Virus record (IMG/VR): IMGVR_UViG_3300046777_002658
Coordinates: 1-64,000 of that record
Source: a virus
Direction: 5' to 3' (one strand)
DNA length: 64,000 nt
Notes under the pieces: model-generated
Databases searched by the model: none
What the model was told of the DNA's origin: nothing
Seen by the model: the letters and a program-made list of their open reading frames with translations, nothing else
Shown here: positions 7,909-16,774 of the stretch, one piece after another
Layout: each line of letters opens with the position of its first letter
Numbering within the stretch: the first letter of the stretch is position 1
Translations under genes and position numbers: made by a program

Positions 7909-8079
7909 AAGTCAGTTCTTAGGTTGTATCTCTGGGAATGACTTAACCAAAAGAAGTAGTTGCTAGATGCAGGAAATATGACAAACCTGGGCTAGTTAGT
8001 TACTTTTTTAGCTTATTATGACTGTAGCATAACTTATCAAAACTGGCAACTAAGGTTAAAAACTATGAAAGGAGTATTA

Positions 8080-8310
8080 ATCAAGTAGAGACGGTCTGAC
8101 CCGTATGAAGATAAAGAACAGAGAAAAGCTGCCATAAAGAACGCCCACCGCACTGTCAGACAGCAGACTAGAAACCAACTAAAAGCGATCGCAGAAGGCT
8201 ATAGTTCAGAGGAGTGGCTGCTCCACCAAATCTTTCATGAGCCACATCACCCAGAAAGAGCTTGGGAGACTTTTGAGCAGCCAAGAGTTAGACTTGGGTA
8301 TTTTGATTAA
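8080..8310 (+). pseudogene. Small phage gene with non-AUG start and in-frame amber
   Basis: The Shine-Dalgarno block AAAGGAGTATT is followed by ATC AAG TAG AGA CGG, then an open frame of about 75 codons of good coding quality (RRSDPYEDKEQRKAAIKNAH onward, ending RVRLGYFD). The next gene has the same leader, AAAGGAGTATTT, followed by ATG, so ATC occupies the start position here. The third codon TAG lies where TGG (Trp) would read naturally (MKWRRSDPYED). An alternative ATG at 8065 is in frame but overlaps the ribosome-binding site and meets the same TAG. Either a pseudogene or recoded. Confidence 0.5.
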
Positions 8311-8320
8311 AGGAGTATTT

Positions 8321-8488
8321 ATGGGAGCAGGCGGAGCAAAGTCAGCAACTCCAGCAGGTGAACAATCTAATTCTTCAAAAGAATTAGAAGTATTAAGTCC
8401 TCACTTACAGCAAAGATGGTTTGAAGCCATAGACAGAGCTGAGTTATCAAGAAAAGGAATGAAGAAAAAGGGAAGACAAGACAGTTAA
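8321..8488 (+). CDS. Small protein, unknown (55 aa)
   Basis: I choose ATG 8321 because AAAGGAG lies 5 nt upstream; a longer frame from 8237 overlaps the preceding ORF. The product MGAGGAKSATPAGEQSNSSK then has a helical segment HLQQRWFEAIDRAEL and a basic tail. No family recognised. Confidence 0.5.
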   Translation: MGAGGAKSATPAGEQSNSSKELEVLSPHLQQRWFEAIDRAELSRKGMKKKGRQDS

Positions 8489-8643
8489 AAAATTTCGAGA
8501 AAATGTTGGTTTAGGACTTTTTGTAGGTTCAGTCATATCACAAAGTGAACAGTTACCTGAGCCAGCTCCTACAATCACAAAAGTTGTACTAGGTGCGGCA
8601 GTTGTGGCTAAAGTAGTTTTAGACGCGCTGTCGGACGACTAAA
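8463..8643 (+). pseudogene. Frameshifted small membrane-like ORF
   Basis: A frame without a usual start reads KKFRENVGLGLFVGSVISQS. It meets a run of five A at 8579-8583 that shifts it, and coding continues one frame over as VVLGAAVVAKVVLDALSDD to TAA 8641. The alternating hydrophobic segments suggest a small membrane protein. A single-base homopolymer change, real or a sequencing error, would explain the break. Confidence 0.35.
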
Positions 8644-8647
8644 CAAA

Positions 8648-9613
8648 ATGAAAAATAGCATCTTACAGGATTACGCAGATTTTGTGTGTAGAAGACAATC
8701 TGTGCTATTAAACAAAATCTACACCTCTCCTGACTATATAGACCCTGTTCTTGGGACTAACAAGTTTACAAACGTCCAAAGAATCTTTGACAGAGTATCT
8801 CAGTATGAACTCAAAGAAGTTTTATACTCTGGTAGCCAAAAGATAGAAGATTTAATTCTCAGAGTGTTTATCTTCAACCAGTTTAAAACTGAAGCTTTTT
8901 GGGAGTATTTAAAGTCTAGAGACTACTGCCCAGAGTTTAAAACCTTTAAGGCTGAGGAGTTTACAAAGCTAATAGCTGAATATAGTGGCAAAGATAAGCT
9001 ATTTACCTCTGCTTATGTTGTGCCAGGAAAGAGTGGAGAGAGTAAGGCTAAAACAATAGCAGAACGAGCTGGAGTTTTAACAAGAGTTTTATTTAGAACT
9101 GGTGGAATATCACAGAAAGGAGAGCAGTTACTTTCTGTCTTAAAAGAGATACCAGGCATTGGAGACTTTTTAGGTTCTCAAGTAGTATTTGACTTGCTGT
9201 GGCATGAAGCCTTTAAAGACTGGAAGCCTCTTTACATTTTAGGGGTAGGGGCAGTGCGCGGGGCTTTTAAGCTAAGTTTAATTCCTAACGCTAATAAAGT
9301 AACCCCTCAAGAAGCTGAATACGCCTTAAAGAAAGCTCTAGAGATAGTTCAAGAATCAGACTACCCTTACGTCACAGCTAACAACTTTAAGAATGTAGAG
9401 CTTTGCCCAGCAGATATTCAGAATACCTTTTGTGAGATTGACAAGCGGTTTAGACTAACTCATCCTGAGTTACAAGTATCAAAATCTAGCCCGACAAGAA
9501 TTAAAAATGTCTACAAACCTAGAGCAGCTATTGAGTACAAAGTTCCTGGTTGGTGGGTTGGTGCAGAAGGTATAATAGCGGTAGATAGAAAGGAAAATAA
9601 TGGAACAGCCTAG
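8648..9613 (+). CDS. HMUDK-helical / thymine pyrophosphorylase-like protein
   Basis: 321 residues. The N-terminus (YADFVCRRQSVLLNKIYTSP, FTNVQRIFDRVSQY, LILRVFIFNQFKTEAFWEYL) fits the all-helical domain shared by phage 5-hydroxymethyl-dUMP DNA kinases and alpha-glutamyl/putrescinyl-thymine pyrophosphorylases. A helix-hairpin-helix-like segment IPGIGDFLGSQVVFDLLWHE follows near residues 175-195. These enzymes activate 5-hmdU in DNA for replacement by bulky groups. No separate P-loop kinase, dUMP hydroxymethylase or transferase gene is visible in this window, so partners would have to lie outside. The downstream gene overlaps by 14 nt. The family match is from recalled motifs. Confidence 0.55.
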   Translation: MKNSILQDYADFVCRRQSVLLNKIYTSPDYIDPVLGTNKFTNVQRIFDRVSQYELKEVLYSGSQKIEDLILRVFIFNQFKTEAFWEYLKSRDYCPEFKTFKAEEFTKLIAEYSGKDKLFTSAYVVPGKSGESKAKTIAERAGVLTRVLFRTGGISQKGEQLLSVLKEIPGIGDFLGSQVVFDLLWHEAFKDWKPLYILGVGAVRGAFKLSLIPNANKVTPQEAEYALKKALEIVQESDYPYVTANNFKNVELCPADIQNTFCEIDKRFRLTHPELQVSKSSPTRIKNVYKPRAAIEYKVPGWWVGAEGIIAVDRKENNGTA

Positions 9614-10217
9614 TAATTCCCTCACTATACAAGAGACTATCCAAAACAAGGTAAGAGCCCTTATTAAACAAAGGGCAGATGATTTGTATACTTTGATAAG
9701 AGCTGATGCTCAGTGGTTAGAGAATAACAAAATTCAGCTAAAGTTCAATCTACCAATTGGAATTGTGAGACCAATAATTTCTGGTAGTGAGCAAAAGTGG
9801 TTTGGGGCTGAGGTGTATATTCTTTGTAGACCTGAGATGCACCCAAACCAAAATACAGTTACTGTGCAGCACAAAGATGGAACTGTGGGCTACTTTTGGG
9901 AGGAAGAGGTGTTGCTGACTCCAGACACAGAGGAGTTAGAAGTTGATAGCTACGAGGTGCTAGTTAACTTACACCACAAAGTAAACTTGCACTCTTTTAC
10001 ACTCCAAGAGAGGCTCAAGAAGTTAGCTGAACAAAATGCAACTGTAAGAAAGCACTGCTTGTCTCCTAACTTTTATAGTTTTAGTAACTGGTCTGACAGG
10101 TTTAAGTATATTTTAGACCAGCTTGTAGTACCAAATATTAAGGTGGTTGATAATGGGGAGATAGAGCTGCTCAAGCAGCTAAAACTAACAGAAGCTTTAG
10201 AGAAAACAGCAACGTAA
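9600..10217 (+). CDS. Hypothetical protein coupled to HMUDK-like gene
   Basis: 205 residues. The start overlaps the end of the preceding gene, suggesting a joint role. Mostly beta-rich in the centre (KIQLKFNLPIGIVRPIISGS, YFWEEEVLLTPD), helical at both ends. No recognised motif. Confidence 0.6.
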   Translation: MEQPSNSLTIQETIQNKVRALIKQRADDLYTLIRADAQWLENNKIQLKFNLPIGIVRPIISGSEQKWFGAEVYILCRPEMHPNQNTVTVQHKDGTVGYFWEEEVLLTPDTEELEVDSYEVLVNLHHKVNLHSFTLQERLKKLAEQNATVRKHCLSPNFYSFSNWSDRFKYILDQLVVPNIKVVDNGEIELLKQLKLTEALEKTAT

Positions 10218-10290
10218 GAGACTGGCTACTAGTTTAAGGCTACTTCCCGCTCTAAGCGTTTGAACAAATCTATCGGATTGTTATTCACCG

Positions 10291-10342
10291 ATACTTTTTG
10301 CTAACTTATGTTAACAAATACATAAGTTAGCAAAAAAAGTAT
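10291..10342. repeat. 18-bp inverted repeat between small genes
   Basis: ACTTTTTGCTAACTTATG (10293-10310) pairs with CATAAGTTAGCAAAAAAAGT (10321-10340) across 10 nt. The T-rich arm is 5' and the A-rich arm 3', so it is not a usual terminator for either strand. It could be an operator or a transcript-stabilising stem. Confidence 0.6.
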
Positions 10343-10347
10343 AGGCT

Positions 10348-10437
10348 ATGACAGAACTTAGCCACAAAGACCGCCAGCACTGGTTAAACAACAGAACATA
10401 TTCAACAACAAAGCTTACTGGAGATTATAATGGTTAA
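10348..10437 (+). CDS. 29-residue small ORF
   Basis: MTELSHKDRQHWLNNRTYST then TKLTGDYNG. The stop overlaps the next start region (ATGGTTAA). No recognised family; supported by tight packing with the next two ORFs. Confidence 0.35.
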   Translation: MTELSHKDRQHWLNNRTYSTTKLTGDYNG

Positions 10438-10591
10438 CGAATTAAAGGAGATTCTATATTCAGTGCAGTTAGTTAGACAGCTTCTAAGTGGTAGTTGGTT
10501 TCTAGTAGCAGATTACAACAGAGATAAAGTTGTGTGGTATAGAAAACCACCGGAAGGCTATTATGTTCTAAAAGTAGAGGAATGGGTTTAG
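10430..10591 (+). CDS. Small phage protein (53 aa)
   Basis: ATG 10430, preceded by TGGAGATT, gives MVNELKEILYSVQLVRQLLS and a Trp/Tyr-rich second half (SWFLVADYNRDKVVWYRKPP). It is directly followed by the next ATG at 10592 with no gap, so the two are probably coupled. Confidence 0.5.
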   Translation: MVNELKEILYSVQLVRQLLSGSWFLVADYNRDKVVWYRKPPEGYYVLKVEEWV

Positions 10592-10816
10592 ATGCGCAAG
10601 GGCAACCTTGAAACTATAGAGTTAGAGTGGTTTAACCCAAAAGAGGCAGCTCCTAAGCAACTGTCTTGGGTTTTAGTAAAAGATGATGATGACAACGTAT
10701 ATCTCTGCAAGTATATAGGGGACAGATACTACCCTGAAAGTGGAATATACATCAGAGACAACTGGGTAGCAAAAGAGTGGTCTTATTTCCCCTTTAAACA
10801 CAATAGTAGACCTTGA
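10592..10816 (+). CDS. Hypothetical protein (74 aa)
   Basis: Reads MRKGNLETIELEWFNPKEAA then LSWVLVKDDDDNVYLCKYIG. The pattern 'proline-x-WVLV-D-D...V' resembles small phage proteins of the DUF551 type, but the match is weak. Last gene before the tRNA-like cluster. Confidence 0.55.
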   Translation: MRKGNLETIELEWFNPKEAAPKQLSWVLVKDDDDNVYLCKYIGDRYYPESGIYIRDNWVAKEWSYFPFKHNSRP

Positions 10817-10932
10817 ACAAAAGTAGCTTTTAAAGTATAATACTGTTATGTAGTGCAAAACGTCTTGCAAAAGCAGAACAAATAGTCCGCTCAGAGTGTA
10901 TATGAGCCCAGTATGAAGGTAAGCTGGTAAGT

Positions 10933-11029
10933 AGTAGGTGGCGGATGGTTGACGCGCTTGTCTAGTGTTATTCAGAAATGAATGGTGCAGTGGCACAAGG
11001 AAAGTGGGGTTCGACTCCTCACCCTACTA
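10933..11029 (+). tRNA. tRNA-like element 1, expanded anticodon loop
   Basis: Acceptor AGTAGGT/CCCTACT (6 of 7 pairs), Leu-type D arm (GCGGATGGTTGACGCGC) and T arm TGGGG-TTCGACT-CCTCA are clear. The stem CTTGT (10957-10961)/ACAAG (10995-10999) occupies the anticodon-stem position but encloses 33 nt instead of 7. Inside lies the hairpin ATTCA-GAAA-TGAAT. No anticodon can be assigned. Confidence 0.5.
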
Positions 11030-11125
11030 ATTGCCCTAAATGTCTCCTTGAAATGTTACTGTTTTAGATTAGCTGGGGGCAAAGCTAATCTAAAACCTTC
11101 TTAATCAAAAGTAAAACTGAGTTTT

Positions 11126-11326
11126 ATAAGCAAAACACAACCAATCATTAATACTGCATCCTTAGCCACCTCTTTGTACAGAGCTTACGGCGACTCTGCT
11201 GAGTGGAAAAACTTCCAGGGTAACAAAATGCCAGAGTGAGGAGAACTGCCAGATAATATCAAAAAGCATTAGACTGAGGTTGCTAATTACGTTAATGAAT
11301 TACTAGAACAACAAACAGTTTGTTAA
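11126..11326 (+). pseudogene. Small phage gene with TGA and TAG at Trp positions
   Basis: The frame starts at ATA AGC AAA ACA and reads (M)SKTQPIINTASLATSLYRAY, then EWKNFQGNKMPE-stop-GELPDNIKKH-stop-TEVANYVNELLEQ and TAA at 11324. It fits a common phage protein with the pattern MPEW..LP..I..HW..VA, in which both positions now occupied by stops (TGA 11237, TAG 11270) are tryptophans. All three defects (ATG to ATA, TGG to TGA, TGG to TAG) are single G-to-A changes. No indel disturbs the frame. Confidence 0.6.
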
Positions 11327-11346
11327 AGTTGTGATATACTGAGTTT

Positions 11347-11472
11347 AGTAGAGTGACTGAGAGGCTTAAAGTTGAATCCTAAACTAATAAAGGACTTGAC
11401 TTGCTAATGTGGATAAGTGACGCAAGACAGTCAATACTTATCGACTCGTGGGTTCTAATCCCACCTCTACTA
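11347..11472 (+). tRNA. tRNA-like element 2, class-II-like with long insert
   Basis: Perfect acceptor AGTAGAG/CTCTACT and T arm GTGGG-TTCTAAT-CCCAC, with a Ser/Leu-type D arm (ACTGAGAGGCTTAAAGT). At 126 nt it is too long for a tRNA. A 7-bp stem GATAAGT/ACTTATC (11412-11418/11436-11442) stands at the variable-arm position. AATCC...GGACT could form an anticodon stem, but with a 12-nt loop. No normal anticodon loop is visible. Confidence 0.45.
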
Positions 11473-11475
11473 ACC

Positions 11476-11492
11476 TTCTCGTTTTGCGAGAA
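11476..11492 (+). terminator. Hairpin after tRNA-like element 2
   Basis: TTCTCG-TTTTG-CGAGAA, 6 bp, 4 nt downstream of the element. No long T-tract; it could be a processing or termination signal. Confidence 0.4.
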
Positions 11493-11661
11493 CCAGCACT
11501 GCACTGGAGTTGTGTGGCTTCATGCCAATAGCTGATGCAGACACAGACTGGTAAAGCTGTGAATGAAATAAAGCCTGGTAGTTTTCTCACCCTAGCCGCA
11601 TGACAGAACAACTAGGGGTTCACCGTTAGCATCTAAGGATGTAAGAGGAGACAAAGTTAGT

Positions 11662-11820
11662 ATAGTTATCTTAACAACTGTAAAAGGCGTAACTCTAGGA
11701 ATAGTCTGGTTTCCTGTAGGCGAATCTCTCCTTGCACTACTCACAGTTAATAAAGCACTAGTAGCTGAGTTTGAGAAAGCTAGTGTATTAAAGAAGGGAA
11801 CTCAGAGGTTAAACCAATAA
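11662..11820 (+). pseudogene. Short ORF with possible ATA start
   Basis: AAGAGGAG (11644-11651) is followed by an open frame with no ATG, GTG or TTG. From ATA (11662) it reads (M)VILTTVKGVTLGIVWFPVGE, then SLLALLTVNKALVAEFEKAS, a hydrophobic helix with a charged tail, ending at TAA 11818. It may be a small membrane protein that has lost its start codon. Confidence 0.35.
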
Positions 11821-11893
11821 TAAATCCGACCCGCCCAGTAACGAGGAAAGCAAAACAGGTACAGTTGTTTAGATAGTTCTACTAATAGAAAAT

Positions 11894-11970
11894 GGAGAAT
11901 GTAACTCAATAGTAGAGTAGAAGCCTTTAAGAAATTAATTAAATCTGAGTTTAAATCTCAGCGTTCTCCA
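11894..11970 (+). tRNA. tRNA-like element 3, atypical anticodon arm
   Basis: Acceptor GGAGAATG/CGTTCTCC (8 bp), D arm ACTC-AATAGTA-GAGT and T arm CTGAG-TTTAAAT-CTCAG are all intact. Between D and T arms only TTTAA/TTAAA with an 8-nt loop can pair, displaced from the usual place. The loop sequence CTTTAAG would give anticodon TTA if the unpaired register were used, but no stem supports it. Confidence 0.45.
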
Positions 11971-11975
11971 CATTC

Positions 11976-12046
11976 GGGGGTGTCGTATAGAGGCATTATG
12001 TCCGATTGTCTATCAGAAGAAGGCGGATCGTTACCGCTCACCCTCG
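11976..12046 (+). tRNA. tRNA-Asp(GUC), divergent
   Basis: A seven-pair acceptor (GGGGGTG/CACCCTC, one G-T pair). Anticodon stem TCCGA/TCAGA has one C-A mismatch; the loop TTGTCTA contains anticodon GTC at 12008-12010. T stem GGCGG/CCGCT carries the unusual loop ATCGTTA. The D stem is weak. 71 nt, no encoded CCA. The most tRNA-like member of the cluster with a readable anticodon, apart from the Pro candidate. Confidence 0.55.
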
Positions 12047-12068
12047 TTCTAGTTTATCTAGAAGTTAT

Positions 12069-12128
12069 TCCTCTTTAGTTCAGTGGCAGAACGATCAGTC
12101 CTTGGTTCAAATCCAAGAGGGGGAGCCA
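12069..12128 (+). tRNA. tRNA-like element lacking the anticodon arm
   Basis: Acceptor TCCTCTT/AGGGGGA, D arm GTTC-AGTGGCA-GAAC and a perfect T arm CTTGG-TTCAAAT-CCAAG are followed by discriminator G and encoded CCA (12126-12128). Only seven nucleotides (ATCAGTC) lie between D arm and T stem, so the anticodon arm is missing. It cannot decode. It may still be recognised by tRNA-end enzymes or elongation factor. Confidence 0.6.
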
Positions 12129-12202
12129 CCAAGCCTGGGCTAAAGGTAAGCCACCTCTTTTGGGAAGAGGATATCATGTAAGTTCGACTTCAGCGGCGTG
12201 GA
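12129..12202 (+). tRNA. tRNA-Pro(UGG), degenerate T stem
   Basis: It abuts the CCA of the previous element. Acceptor CCAAGCC/GGCGTGG (6 of 7 pairs), D arm GGCT-AAAGGTA-AGCC, perfect anticodon arm CCTCT-TTTGGGA-AGAGG with anticodon TGG (12161-12163). The T loop TTCGACT is normal, but the flanking stem GTAAG/TCAGC pairs poorly. Not followed by CCA. Confidence 0.5.
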
Positions 12203-12237
12203 CCTGTTAGAGAAAACTCAAACACCCTAAAACTACA

Positions 12238-14457
12238 CTAGAAGTAATCATCACTACTCCAGCTTCCACCATCATTTCTACTTGTACCCCAACCTTTATA
12301 AGCTGTCTTTATCTGGGAGGCTAACTCACGCCCAGCTCCTGCAAAAGCTATATCCAAATTAGGGTCACCAGGTAAAAGCTTTGCTTCTTTGCTTTCACTT
12401 CTTATAGCCGTACCCTGTATAGCCGAGCTTAAGTCGCTCATTAAATGCCAGGCTACCACTGCTACTGCATCACAGATATCTTTAGAATTATGAACAATGA
12501 TGCCGGCAGCTAAAGCAAAGTTATCCCACTCATCAACCTCTAGGTCATAAACAGGTACAGGGCTATCAAGAGTTACAGGAATAATACTTTTAACTTTGTA
12601 CTCTTTATTTGGCTTGACAGGCATTAAGCAAGTGATACCCGGTGCTATATCCTTTGCCTGTATATAGTTCCCTGTTCTAGTCATAAAAAGATGTTCAGGA
12701 GTACATCTAACAACAGCTTCTGTGTCTAGAACAACGTTTAGCAGGTGTGTGACCTCTTTAGTCTTTCTACCTTTAGCTCTACCAGGTACAATAGTCCCGT
12801 CAGGCTTACAACTATAAACCCAAACCTCTCGGTTTTGTAGTTCAGCAATTGTTGGTTGTGTACCATCAAGCAAGGGTATTCTGGTTTCCGCAGTAAAACA
12901 GCCGTCTTTGCGGTGGTCGATCTTTCTATTTTTTATTAGTTGAATACCAAACATCTCTTCTTTTAGCTTATTACTCCAAGGAGAATCTTTAGGCAGGACT
13001 AACCTGTTTTCATGAAGTAGCTTTCTAGCAAAGTCATAAATCTCTAACTGCTTAGTTTGTGAGAAAGTAATGATACTAGCGTTTAACCCTGTCATCTTCA
13101 AACGCTGGACAGTCTCAGGATTGTAATGGTCACTAGTAATCTTTGTTAAGGGTCTACTGCCATGAATTTGGTAAATAGCCTGGTAGACATTACTAATACC
13201 AACCTGCTGACCTATATCTGGTTCCCAAGCTAACAAGCCATCAATAACTGCAATCTTCTCCCCGCTTCTTACCTCTCTATGACCAAAAGCGATCGCAAAG
13301 GCATCCCTAACAAAAGCTGGGTCGAGGTGCATTACTGAGGATTGTGTAAACCTTCTGATATCCTTTAGTTCCAATCTTACAAGATTATCATCTGCTGGGG
13401 GCAACACGTTAACTCTCAAAACACTATTGCCAGTAAAAGCTCTTTCTACTTCCTGGTCATTAAAAAAAGAGTAAGCGCGGTTAAACCTAACTCCCTCAAA
13501 CTCTAGAGCAGCGTTTCTAGGGTCTAGATCATACTCACCCTGAATGATAGGATTGTCTCTACTAGCATGAACAGGGTTTAAGTCCCATGATCGTAATCTA
13601 TAACCTAACCAACCATTACTAGTTTTGGCTTTGTTATATAAAAACTGGATAGCGTCGCCCTCGCGCCAGGCAGAAGAGATGGCCACTTTTTTAGCATCAA
13701 CACCAAATGTTGTGCCAGAAATGCCTATGTTAGACCATAGCTCAATAGCCTTACTCTCACCGTCCTCTGTCCCGCCTTCATCAAATCTGGCTACCTCATC
13801 CATTACTAAGAGAATTACAGATGAACCAACTTGAGAAGCAGAGTTAGAGTTACCGCTGTAGATGTGGAGTAGCTTCTCTGGGTATTTAACCTCTTCCTCA
13901 CCAATTATCAACTTTTTCTGGTCTATCAGTCTTTTAAGGGGAGGAATATACTCTAATAATGCTCTAGCCTGCCCGAATATAGTCTTTTTTGTTTGTGTAG
14001 CACTTGTGGCTATACAGTAGATAGCAATAGGAGTAGAAGCAGCAATGTTGTACTTTTTTTGAGGGGACTTTAGCATACAGAGTTTATAAAACTCGTAAGC
14101 CACTATGACAGAAGCAGACCAACTTTTTCCAGCTCGTCTGCCAGCCTCCATACACAAAGACTGAAATGGGACACCAGCCTGGTAGAACTCAGGGTTTATG
14201 CTGGTTCTGTCTAACTCGTACCAAGCTTCAAGTAAAGCTATATCTTCTTCATCTAGCTCTAACCCATAAAAGGTTTTAAATAGTAGATACTGCCTGCGGT
14301 GTATTTCCGTGACACCCCAACCTTCTCTATCAATAACATTATCTACAAAGTCAACAATATCTTTAGCTACATCACTATGTCCTAGCTGATCATTTATAGA
14401 ATCAACTAAGCTACCGAAAAAGTCATCTACACTAAGTCCACTTCCTTTTAATGCCAT
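12238..14457 (-). CDS. Terminase large subunit with mini-intein
   Basis: 739 residues as encoded. ATPase: AGRRAGKSWS (K111, Walker A-like) and VILLVMDEVARF (Walker B with catalytic Glu). Nuclease: MHLDPAFVRDAFAIAFGH, ITSDHYN and the final DHRKDG/SKDICDAVAVVAWHL motif. The last motif is split after DG by a 138-residue intein (residues 520-657), so the spliced protein would be about 601 residues, a usual large-terminase size. The enzyme packages DNA into proheads. It is the last gene of the minus-strand structural run, far from the portal gene, an unusual order. No small terminase was recognised. Confidence 0.9.
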   Translation of the reverse strand: MALKGSGLSVDDFFGSLVDSINDQLGHSDVAKDIVDFVDNVIDREGWGVTEIHRRQYLLFKTFYGLELDEEDIALLEAWYELDRTSINPEFYQAGVPFQSLCMEAGRRAGKSWSASVIVAYEFYKLCMLKSPQKKYNIAASTPIAIYCIATSATQTKKTIFGQARALLEYIPPLKRLIDQKKLIIGEEEVKYPEKLLHIYSGNSNSASQVGSSVILLVMDEVARFDEGGTEDGESKAIELWSNIGISGTTFGVDAKKVAISSAWREGDAIQFLYNKAKTSNGWLGYRLRSWDLNPVHASRDNPIIQGEYDLDPRNAALEFEGVRFNRAYSFFNDQEVERAFTGNSVLRVNVLPPADDNLVRLELKDIRRFTQSSVMHLDPAFVRDAFAIAFGHREVRSGEKIAVIDGLLAWEPDIGQQVGISNVYQAIYQIHGSRPLTKITSDHYNPETVQRLKMTGLNASIITFSQTKQLEIYDFARKLLHENRLVLPKDSPWSNKLKEEMFGIQLIKNRKIDHRKDGCFTAETRIPLLDGTQPTIAELQNREVWVYSCKPDGTIVPGRAKGRKTKEVTHLLNVVLDTEAVVRCTPEHLFMTRTGNYIQAKDIAPGITCLMPVKPNKEYKVKSIIPVTLDSPVPVYDLEVDEWDNFALAAGIIVHNSKDICDAVAVVAWHLMSDLSSAIQGTAIRSESKEAKLLPGDPNLDIAFAGAGRELASQIKTAYKGWGTSRNDGGSWSSDDYF
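12487..12900 (-). other. Mini-intein in terminase nuclease motif
   Basis: 138 codons. It begins with Cys (CFTAETRIPLLDG, block A), has CTPEHLFMT (block B with the TxxH-type motif), VYDLEVDEWDNFAL (block F) and ends IIVHN before Ser (block G, His-Asn/Ser junction). No homing-endonuclease domain fits in this length. All residues needed for self-splicing are visible. Insertion is exactly between Gly and Ser of the conserved DG/SKD nuclease motif, so terminase activity should depend on splicing. Confidence 0.88.
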
Positions 14458-14623: not shown

Positions 14624-16774
14624 TTATGGTGTAGGTTCCTCTTTTGCTATAGCCTTAATATTAAACTCTCCAGAAATTATGTATCTAACTCCTACAGGAG
14701 CAATCCAGTCTAGAGCTGCTGATAGACCTGTAGGAATTGGGCTTTTTGTACTTAATGAAACGAGCCCTGTAAAGTTTTCTAGAGGCTCAACAAATTTATC
14801 TCCTGATAAACTACTAGCAGTGTCGTAAGGAAAACCTGGTATTGGTCTTAGCTGTGATTGATTTTTATTAGTAGTCAAAGTAGAAAAGATTCCTTCTTGC
14901 TCTCCAACTGCTTGCTGCTGGTAATAAGCTATTGCTCTATACTCTAACTCTTCAAAATACAAATGATTAAAAGTTTTGTTAGGAGCGGTGTAAGTGTTAT
15001 CTTCCAAGCTCTGCAAAACAGAGTATAACTCTGGGTTATTGTAAGTCTGCTCAAAGTCAACTTTTAACAAGGTAGCTAATCTCTCTTTAACAGAAAGATT
15101 AGGTTGCCTGTACAAAGTGTCTAAAACAGATCTAGAGACCTCCTCTGATAGGTAACTAGCTAAAGGGAAGACAAGTTTTAATAACTCAGTTAAAATAAAA
15201 CCTCTAGAATCTAGAAGAGGTAGTCTGACCAAGCTATATCTTAAAAACCAAACAAAGTATGATTGTGAGTAGGCATACAGTAAAGCACCAATGTTTGTAG
15301 ACCTGTCTTCTTGAGCTTCTACACTAGACCAAAAATCACCGTCTGGTGACATTCTAATAAGTTCTTCTTTGCAGTAAGAAGTGTAAGCAGAGGCTTCTAC
15401 AGCATACAAATTAAAAATAGCGTCTGTGGTTAGTAAAAAATTTGTTACACCACAAGCCACAGGGGTTAATTCATAAATCTCAAGTTGTGTCTGTTCAAGT
15501 AGCAAAGCCTCGTCAGACGTATCTAAAAGCAAACTTGTTACCCAGCTAGGTGTAGTTAAAGAAGACTGTTTCACTAGAGCAGCAACTAAAAAATCAGAGC
15601 TATCAGTAACACTTGTTTTATAGCCATAATAGATAGAAAAGAAGCTATTAAAGTCATGAGGTTTAAATTCTAGTAACCACCATAACTTGTAGCTAAGAGT
15701 GTCTAACTGCTCTGTGTCTGTAAAAATATCATAAAAAAAATCATTTAGCTTCAGGGGAGCATTAATAATAGACAAGTATAATCTAGCTGCTTTTTCGTGC
15801 ACTAAACTATCGTACTGAAGTAGTAAGAAAGAGTTAAAGAATAAAGAAGATATGTAACTAGTCTTTAAAGAAAGTTGATAATAGTCATAATAACCGTCTT
15901 CTTGAACACCAGCGCACCAGTAGTTTATTTTGCTAACAGACTCAGCGCAGCAGTAAGCAAAAACTTTTGCAAGCTCTAAAGACTCATGCAGAAAGTTGTC
16001 CAGCAGGTTATCAAAATAGCTTATCTTATTAAGATAGTGAAGACTTTTTGTTATAGCCAGCCCCAACAAAGCATTGTCTAAAACATAAACAGTAGTCTCT
16101 TCTGGAACAGGCTCTAGTGAAGTTAAACCCCAAAAGCCTTCTGTAACTGCCAGTAGTTGCCCTGAAGAGTCTGAAAGCTGCCCGGACTGCTTCACTATTC
16201 TTGTTAGTTCTCTCAACTGACTAACCACTAGTTCAGGTTCATCTAAGGCACAAGCCAAAAGCAAACCCCAAGCCGCTGAGTTGATACTTCTTGTACCGGA
16301 GGACAGGCTAGAGACACAAGTTACACCTGTACTAAAATTAGGAACTTTATAAGAAACTATAGTGCTGAAAGGAAACACAAACTGTACTGTTAAGGCTTTA
16401 TTAGGCAGGTGCACTAGTTTGTGATTATTGTAATCAACAGCAACAGTAGTGCTGGCTAAGTTAGAGTCGTCTGCATAGGTAATTTCTCTTGTCTCTGAGT
16501 CACCAGTTTTAGTAACCTTAAACTCGTTAACAGCTAACTCATAGTAGAAGTTAACAGGTGAGCTCAACAGCAAAGGTGAAGTTACACCCCAAACTTGACT
16601 ATAAGCACCAGATGTAACCTTGTAAGACTCTTCAGTATCAACAGCAGTTATTTCTAAATCCCGGTGTTGCTCATCTTTTTCAGAGGCTATCGAACTAGGT
16701 GTTAAAGTAAACTTACTATAGTAATTTAAAGAGGCTTGGTTACAAAAAAACCAAGCTGGCAAATATGGTTTCAT
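14624..16774 (-). CDS. Probable baseplate/tail protein (716 aa)
   Basis: Follows the gpJ-like gene by 2 nt, in the place where gpI, Mu gp48 or tail-fibre proteins occur in contractile-tail phages. The protein is rich in Ser, Leu and Tyr, with many alternating hydrophobic segments and no recognised motif. The position suggests a structural role at the baseplate periphery; nothing in the sequence proves it. Confidence 0.55.
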   Translation of the reverse strand: MKPYLPAWFFCNQASLNYYSKFTLTPSSIASEKDEQHRDLEITAVDTEESYKVTSGAYSQVWGVTSPLLLSSPVNFYYELAVNEFKVTKTGDSETREITYADDSNLASTTVAVDYNNHKLVHLPNKALTVQFVFPFSTIVSYKVPNFSTGVTCVSSLSSGTRSINSAAWGLLLACALDEPELVVSQLRELTRIVKQSGQLSDSSGQLLAVTEGFWGLTSLEPVPEETTVYVLDNALLGLAITKSLHYLNKISYFDNLLDNFLHESLELAKVFAYCCAESVSKINYWCAGVQEDGYYDYYQLSLKTSYISSLFFNSFLLLQYDSLVHEKAARLYLSIINAPLKLNDFFYDIFTDTEQLDTLSYKLWWLLEFKPHDFNSFFSIYYGYKTSVTDSSDFLVAALVKQSSLTTPSWVTSLLLDTSDEALLLEQTQLEIYELTPVACGVTNFLLTTDAIFNLYAVEASAYTSYCKEELIRMSPDGDFWSSVEAQEDRSTNIGALLYAYSQSYFVWFLRYSLVRLPLLDSRGFILTELLKLVFPLASYLSEEVSRSVLDTLYRQPNLSVKERLATLLKVDFEQTYNNPELYSVLQSLEDNTYTAPNKTFNHLYFEELEYRAIAYYQQQAVGEQEGIFSTLTTNKNQSQLRPIPGFPYDTASSLSGDKFVEPLENFTGLVSLSTKSPIPTGLSAALDWIAPVGVRYIISGEFNIKAIAKEEPTP

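Follow-up and report, generated by a model that had tools for sequence, protein, structure and literature searches.

The cluster and its relatives

The DNA analysed here, referred to as the window, is the first 64 kb of a 196,877-base IMG/VR virus record (IMGVR_UViG_3300046777_002658). At about 36%, its large terminase is related to the terminases of Microcystis phage LMM01 and allied phages, and the source looks like a large cyanophage-like virus. Relatives in IMG/VR include two contigs that serve for comparison below: L001, at 79% in the best terminase segment, and L006, at 88% to the window terminase, a figure that covers the last 103 terminase residues only. Beside the terminase gene lies a cluster of tRNA-like elements together with conserved non-coding RNA (Table 1). 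An earlier note on this DNA had listed six tRNA-like elements, and all six are indeed present, at 10932-12204, most of them with abnormal anticodon arms.

Table 1. Features of the tRNA-like cluster and its surroundings (window coordinates)
Feature	Position	Strand	Basis or remarks
Putative sigma-70-like promoter of the element 1 unit (TU1), TTGAAC-17-TATAAT	10813-10841	+	Consensus scan
5' domain of TU1, three small hairpins	10855-10868, 10889-10907, 10908-10927	+	Kept in L006
Element 1, tRNA-like structure	10932-11030	+	ARAGORN intron mode and L006 orthologue
Element 1, acceptor	10932-10938/11023-11029	+	TAGTAGG/CCTACTA
Element 1, D arm	10941-10955	+	D stem GCG/CGC, A14, GG in loop
Element 1, 5-bp anticodon stem	10957-10961/10995-10999	+	CTTGT/ACAAG
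Element 1, 9-bp helix prolonging the anticodon stem	10965-10973/10980-10988	+	Follows an internal loop; 6-nt loop
Element 1, T arm	11005-11021	+	Canonical T loop, TTCGACT
3' end of TU1, with terminator-like 13-14-bp hairpin at 11061-11096	11031-11096	+	Kept in L006 and L001
Putative -10-like TATACT of the second transcription unit (tRNA array)	11335-11340	+	Sequence reading; -35 poor in the window
Element 2, Ser-like tRNA relic with long insert	11346-11475	+	8-bp outer stem, perfect T arm
Conserved structured non-coding RNA, not a tRNA	11475-11655	+	Between elements 2 and 3; absent from the earlier list
Element 3, tRNA relic with displaced anticodon stem and 8-bp acceptor	11895-11969	+	Rfam tRNA, 40.4 bits
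Decaying tRNA-Asp(GTC)	11976-12046	+	C-A mismatch in anticodon stem, A to C at position 9
Asn-like tRNA, anticodon arm deleted, CCA encoded	12069-12128	+	Sequence reading
Decaying tRNA-Pro(TGG)	12129-12204	+	Anticodon arm perfect, T stem broken, one acceptor mismatch; ARAGORN
Large terminase	12238-14457	-	

Scoring by ARAGORN and covariance models, the check that had been suggested for these elements, recovers them only in part. At its default setting ARAGORN calls a single tRNA in the cluster, the Pro element, and its intron mode adds element 1. Rfam tRNA matches three elements, namely element 3, the Asp element (34.1 bits) and the Pro element, the last at 28.0 bits over 12129-12202 and so just below the gathering score of 29. 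A cloverleaf with a 7-nt anticodon loop at the default threshold, as expected of a functional tRNA, is not found in element 1; elsewhere only the Pro element is called, and its T stem is broken. Folded in isolation, the elements do not form cloverleaves at minimum energy. As set out below, the cluster is apparently a mixture of decaying ordinary tRNA genes and one selected, non-decoding tRNA look-alike.

Probable decay of the downstream tRNA genes

The four elements at 11895-12204 are best judged against the same place in the relatives. Downstream of its terminase, L001 carries nine tRNAs called by default ARAGORN (Pro, Asn, Asp, two Ser, Arg, Glu, Trp and Tyr), while L006 carries Asn, Asp and Glu; intact genes thus stand at the positions of the Asp, Asn and Pro elements in L001 and of the Asp and Asn elements in L006. 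Over 75 nt the Asp element shows 97% identity with the intact L001 tRNA-Asp (12646-12720), differing from it at two sites; ARAGORN calls the element only when relaxed. The Pro element shares 81% identity over 57 nt with its intact L001 counterpart, the tRNA-Pro at 12439-12493. For the element at 12069-12128, direct reading of the sequence bears out the report that it has no anticodon arm and still encodes CCA: it has a 7-bp acceptor (two pairs being G-U), a perfect 4-bp D stem and a perfect 5-bp T stem, with 7-8 nt between the D and T arms. We infer its Asn isotype, the element being a close sequence match to the tRNA-Asn of neither L001 nor L006, and one deletion explains its armless form. 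For element 3, neither a homologue in phages or in L001 and L006 nor an intact counterpart was found; decay is the default reading.

Judged from sequence, then, all four look like ordinary tRNA genes being lost. The earlier note had argued that decay would damage acceptor and T arms as well, so that their retention pointed to selection for tRNA mimicry, with roles as decoys, with tRNA-end enzymes or in priming as candidates. Such sparing is not general, as the T stem of the Pro element is broken and its anticodon arm is normal, and it needs no selection, because one deletion or one stem mutation leaves the other arms untouched. The relatives have intact Asp, Asn and Pro tRNAs at this place, a finding that the earlier note had named as one that would refute its reading, and mimicry is not supported for the downstream elements.

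One may go further and regard every element, element 1 included, as a tRNA pseudogene, with the apparent bias towards anticodon damage due to chance or to ascertainment, since an element without its acceptor or T arm would go unrecognised. The intact Asp, Asn and Pro genes of the relatives, the two-site difference of the Asp element, the lost T stem of the Pro element and the single deletion behind the armless one all fit decay throughout. We nonetheless think it unlikely, given that element 1 and its flanks keep nearly all their pairs with four compensatory changes, that neutral copies of element 1 are seldom recognised with an insert, and that the adjoining non-coding DNA has diverged past alignment.

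Element 1 is conserved as a tRNA-like structure

Besides the helices of Table 1, element 1 has U8 and G9 and a class-I variable loop, GAAAG. It presents no anticodon within a 7-nt loop and, as drawn, would be unable to read a codon. Acceptor, D arm and T arm of tRNA type are present both here and in the L006 orthologue (9097-9195), which has lost one D-stem pair. In intron mode at the default threshold, ARAGORN calls element 1 with a 26-nt insert in the anticodon loop, and it calls the L006 orthologue independently with the same 26-nt insert. Insert calls of this kind numbered zero in 1.28 Mb (20 x 64 kb) of Markov-simulated sequence and zero in 366 kb of bacterial control loci.

Element 1 belongs to a self-standing unit of about 250 nt, TU1, which consists of a promoter-like site, three 5' hairpins, the tRNA-like structure and a 3' hairpin. 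L006 has a promoter-like site, TTGGTA-18-TATAAT (9314-9285), at the same place; the promoter of TU1 is a consensus match only, and 4 such matches were found against 3.0 expected in shuffles of the region. From 10855 to 11108 the window is 82% identical to L006, and the non-coding DNA just outside this block is unalignable by BLAST. We drew 60 pairs on the block, covering the three 5' hairpins, the 3' hairpin, a possible pseudoknot and the cloverleaf, whose anticodon-side helix is lengthened. L006 keeps 59 of these 60 pairs, although 16 substitutions fall in paired columns. Seven changes are one-sided and consistent with pairing, and four are two-sided, in four different helices: within element 1 the T arm and the anticodon-side extension, and outside it the second 5' hairpin (GCTC/GAGC becoming GCGC/GCGC in L006) and the 3' hairpin (T-A to C-G).

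When an equal number of changes was placed at random, none of 20,000 placements was as good, and in controls with slid partners pairing drops to 35-50% with no two-sided change. The shuffle control is weaker for the block (27/500), and the helices have the advantage of having been drawn from the two sequences together. For this reason a test free of hand-drawn structure was added: among 2000 copies of element 1 given 21 random changes of the observed kinds, ARAGORN called 28, of which 10 had an insert (0.5%), whereas the real L006 copy is called with its 26-nt insert. On the other side, substitution in the block (20%) is not significantly lower than the 32% at four-fold sites of the terminase fragment (34 sites; p = 0.12). 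Paired sites of the block changed less often than unpaired ones (16/120 vs 37/142, p = 0.013), and the rates are similar in the tRNA-like part alone (10/58 paired, 11/50 unpaired), so that there the evidence lies in the kind of change and not in its rate. Support comes from only two sequences for the tRNA-like part and from three for the 3' end; more homologues were sought and none found. On this comparison, element 1 is probably not a product of decay.

The idea of selection for tRNA mimicry, put forward for the cluster at large, thus survives for element 1, which is kept in a second contig with compensatory changes although an equal load of neutral mutation nearly always destroys the call. 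Because the downstream elements look decayed while element 1 shows compensatory conservation, such selection is likely only for element 1. Decayed and selected tRNA-like elements can therefore be neighbours, and relatives, not the look of one copy, are needed to separate them.

The insert could also be an intron, with element 1 a working tRNA from which about 26 nt of the anticodon loop are removed by a protein enzyme; in both contigs, joining CT to GTGGC would give the loop CTGTGGC with anticodon GTG. ARAGORN reads both copies in this way with equal insert length, and the bases flanking the insert are invariant. To our knowledge, however, known bacterial tRNA introns are self-splicing group I introns and far longer. 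Moreover, self-pairing within the insert extends the anticodon stem, the helix of the insert covaries, the G-1 expected of tRNA-His is absent, and no RtcB ligase was found in four records searched, which may be fragments. We hold the intron reading to be very unlikely. As a separate candidate, a group I intron remnant in the 5' domain (an AGTCC/J8-7-like string) was dropped, there being no Rfam match.

The third contig and the 3' end of TU1

At the same place L001 has a different oversized tRNA-like sequence, which scores 31.7 bits with Rfam tRNA across 110 nt. The 3' hairpin that comes after it is the one seen in the window and L006, at 75-83% identity to these two. An oversized tRNA-like element therefore occupies this spot in all three contigs, and its tRNA-like part is homologous in two of them. 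Directly after the discriminator base, TTGCCC (11031-11036) is complementary to GGGCAA (11077-11082) in the loop of the 3' hairpin, and the two may pair as a pseudoknot. Both strands are invariant in the three contigs, which places this pairing outside the reach of covariation.

The third contig bears on a further alternative, namely that the tRNA-like part is a processing signal only, with RNase P and 3' enzymes releasing the 5' domain as the active small RNA. Release by tRNA-like parts has precedents, such as mascRNA from MALAT1 (PMC9777231), and the 5' domain is kept between the window and L006 with one compensatory change. In L001, however, the 5' domain is unrelated and yet a tRNA-like element and the 3' end are kept, and a covarying anticodon-side helix would be unneeded for such a signal; the proposal seems to us highly improbable.

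L001 also has a possible tRNA-like element at 12365-12245. Its anticodon stem is of 5 bp (AGGCA/TGCCT), and a long hairpin lies in the 57-nt loop. The acceptor and T stem of this element are imperfect, and no program called it.

A second conserved RNA and element 2

The non-tRNA RNA between elements 2 and 3 is 84% identical over 160 nt to L006 8860-8701 and is recognisable in L001, where its terminal hairpin is missing. In a six-helix structure, 97.8% of pair cells are kept and four pairs have two-sided changes; 9 of 500 shuffles were as good, and slid versions were 31-44% paired. It has no Rfam match, and among 15 records its covariance model matches only the three contigs. The tRNA cluster of phage T4 contains two stable RNAs, C and D, which are conserved, are not tRNAs and have no known function. 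Like them, this is a conserved RNA embedded among phage tRNA genes.

Element 2 is called by ARAGORN at a relaxed threshold only, at which 5 insert calls arise in 1.28 Mb of random sequence, or about 0.01 expected per 2-kb region. The first part of the element shows homology with the L006 leader hairpin of the tRNA array, and no homologue of the element as a whole was found. The TATACT ahead of it aligns with TTGACA-17-TACACT in L006 and TTGACA-16-TATACT in L001. In those contigs (L006 9018-8930, L001 13441-13355) a promoter-like site, TTGACA with TACACT or TATACT, is followed by a hairpin and starts the tRNA array; the 5' half of this leader hairpin corresponds to the outer stem of element 2 in the window.

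Taken together, these results lead us to read the locus, with some confidence, as a decaying phage tRNA array with two embedded conserved non-coding RNAs, of which element 1 is a non-decoding tRNA mimic.

Occurrence of the two RNAs

Both conserved RNAs are absent from more distant LMM01-like contigs obtained by a terminase profile search. Pattern scans of viral and bacterial collections with motifs of both RNAs found true homologues only in the L001 and L006 contigs, and all other matches appear to be chance hits. For the region, no relevant match came from BLAST against phages and plasmids, and a pattern search with the major head protein and with the gene at 9600-10217 brought up no relatives.

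Comparison with known systems and possible role

Phage tRNAs are currently understood either to supplement codon reading or to replace tRNAs that host defences have cut. A tRNA look-alike that is conserved yet unable to decode would separate the two views, as it could act only by binding tRNA-handling factors. Phage tRNAs with changes in the anticodon loop have been predicted to escape host anticodon nucleases (van den Berg 2023, PMC10264068). As here, those tRNAs stand in gene arrays of large phages, and the anticodon region is the part that varies. They differ in carrying point mutations and still decoding, whereas in element 1 no usable loop holds an anticodon and the remainder of the cluster is in decay. 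The plasmid trn operon of Anabaena PCC 7120, with 26 tRNA genes and a described role in translational stress (PMC10272220), is likewise a long tRNA array in a cyanobacterial context; that operon is plasmid-borne, whereas the present region has no sequence match to plasmids.

Other non-decoding RNAs offer parallels in form. tmRNA shares with element 1 a tRNA-like part that lacks a decoding anticodon arm and a possible pseudoknot in the same RNA. Element 1 differs in having a D stem and no G3-U70 alanine signal, and its unit in having the pseudoknot outside the tRNA-like part and no enclosed tag frame; neither ARAGORN nor Rfam calls it a tmRNA, an identity that we rejected. Bacterial Y RNAs are, like TU1, non-decoding RNAs with a tRNA-like module. 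TU1 might be a Y RNA-like molecule that mimics a tRNA and thereby links a Ro/Rsr protein with an exonuclease; work cited in PMC12282133 describes the Y RNAs of bacteria and phages as mimics of tRNA. However, no TROVE (Ro/Rsr) protein was found in the four records G000, G001, G006 and G010, which may be fragments, and in a search of all Rfam 15 families TU1 matched no non-tRNA family, Y RNA included. The odds of a Y RNA-like role appear slight indeed.

Returning to element 1 as a mimic in its own right, the structure of TU1 is supported by conservation and compensatory changes, and its transcription, processing and partner are what we infer. Tentatively, tRNA maturation enzymes, RNase P first of all, would recognise the elbow and acceptor of element 1, and its 3' end would be guarded by the hairpin or the pseudoknot. 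The resulting stable, non-decoding RNA could then occupy or tether a tRNA-binding host factor during infection. A wider proposal, which we regard as possible and rather doubtful, is that a small clade of LMM01-like large phages has a dedicated non-decoding tRNA mimic with its own promoter. Its tRNA module would be exchangeable, as in L001, yet always oversized and devoid of a usable anticodon, with a fixed 3' hairpin and pseudoknot. Together with the RNA at 11475-11655, it would make two undescribed phage RNA families that act on the tRNA machinery of the host, one example being a decoy role towards defences that target tRNAs.

Other features of the contigs

The window terminase contains an intein (Pfam Intein_splicing, residues 629-657). 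The L001 terminase (8001-11207) has an apparent intein at a different site, and that of L005 (6255-10655) apparently has two. In the G006 record (L006 8001-8312) only the end of the terminase is present, from inside the intein onward, adjoining the tRNA array and near a RecJ-like gene; a split gene, a rearranged phage and a captured fragment are possible alternatives. Upstream of its tRNA array L001 carries a HEARO RNA (16036-16330; Rfam RF02033, 101.8 bits). At 8648-9613 the window encodes a protein with a 5-hydroxymethyl-dU DNA kinase helical domain (Pfam PF18723, 3.6e-46), which suggests that the phage DNA is hypermodified.

A further contig, L118 (IMGVR_UViG_3300007177_000055), has at 2211-2362 an intact tRNA-Ile(GAT) gene within the anticodon loop of another tRNA, and the same arrangement is found at the same place in L110. 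The inner gene of L118 has ACCA after the acceptor, and the outer tRNA is called as tRNA-Met(CAT) by ARAGORN once the inner gene is removed in a script.
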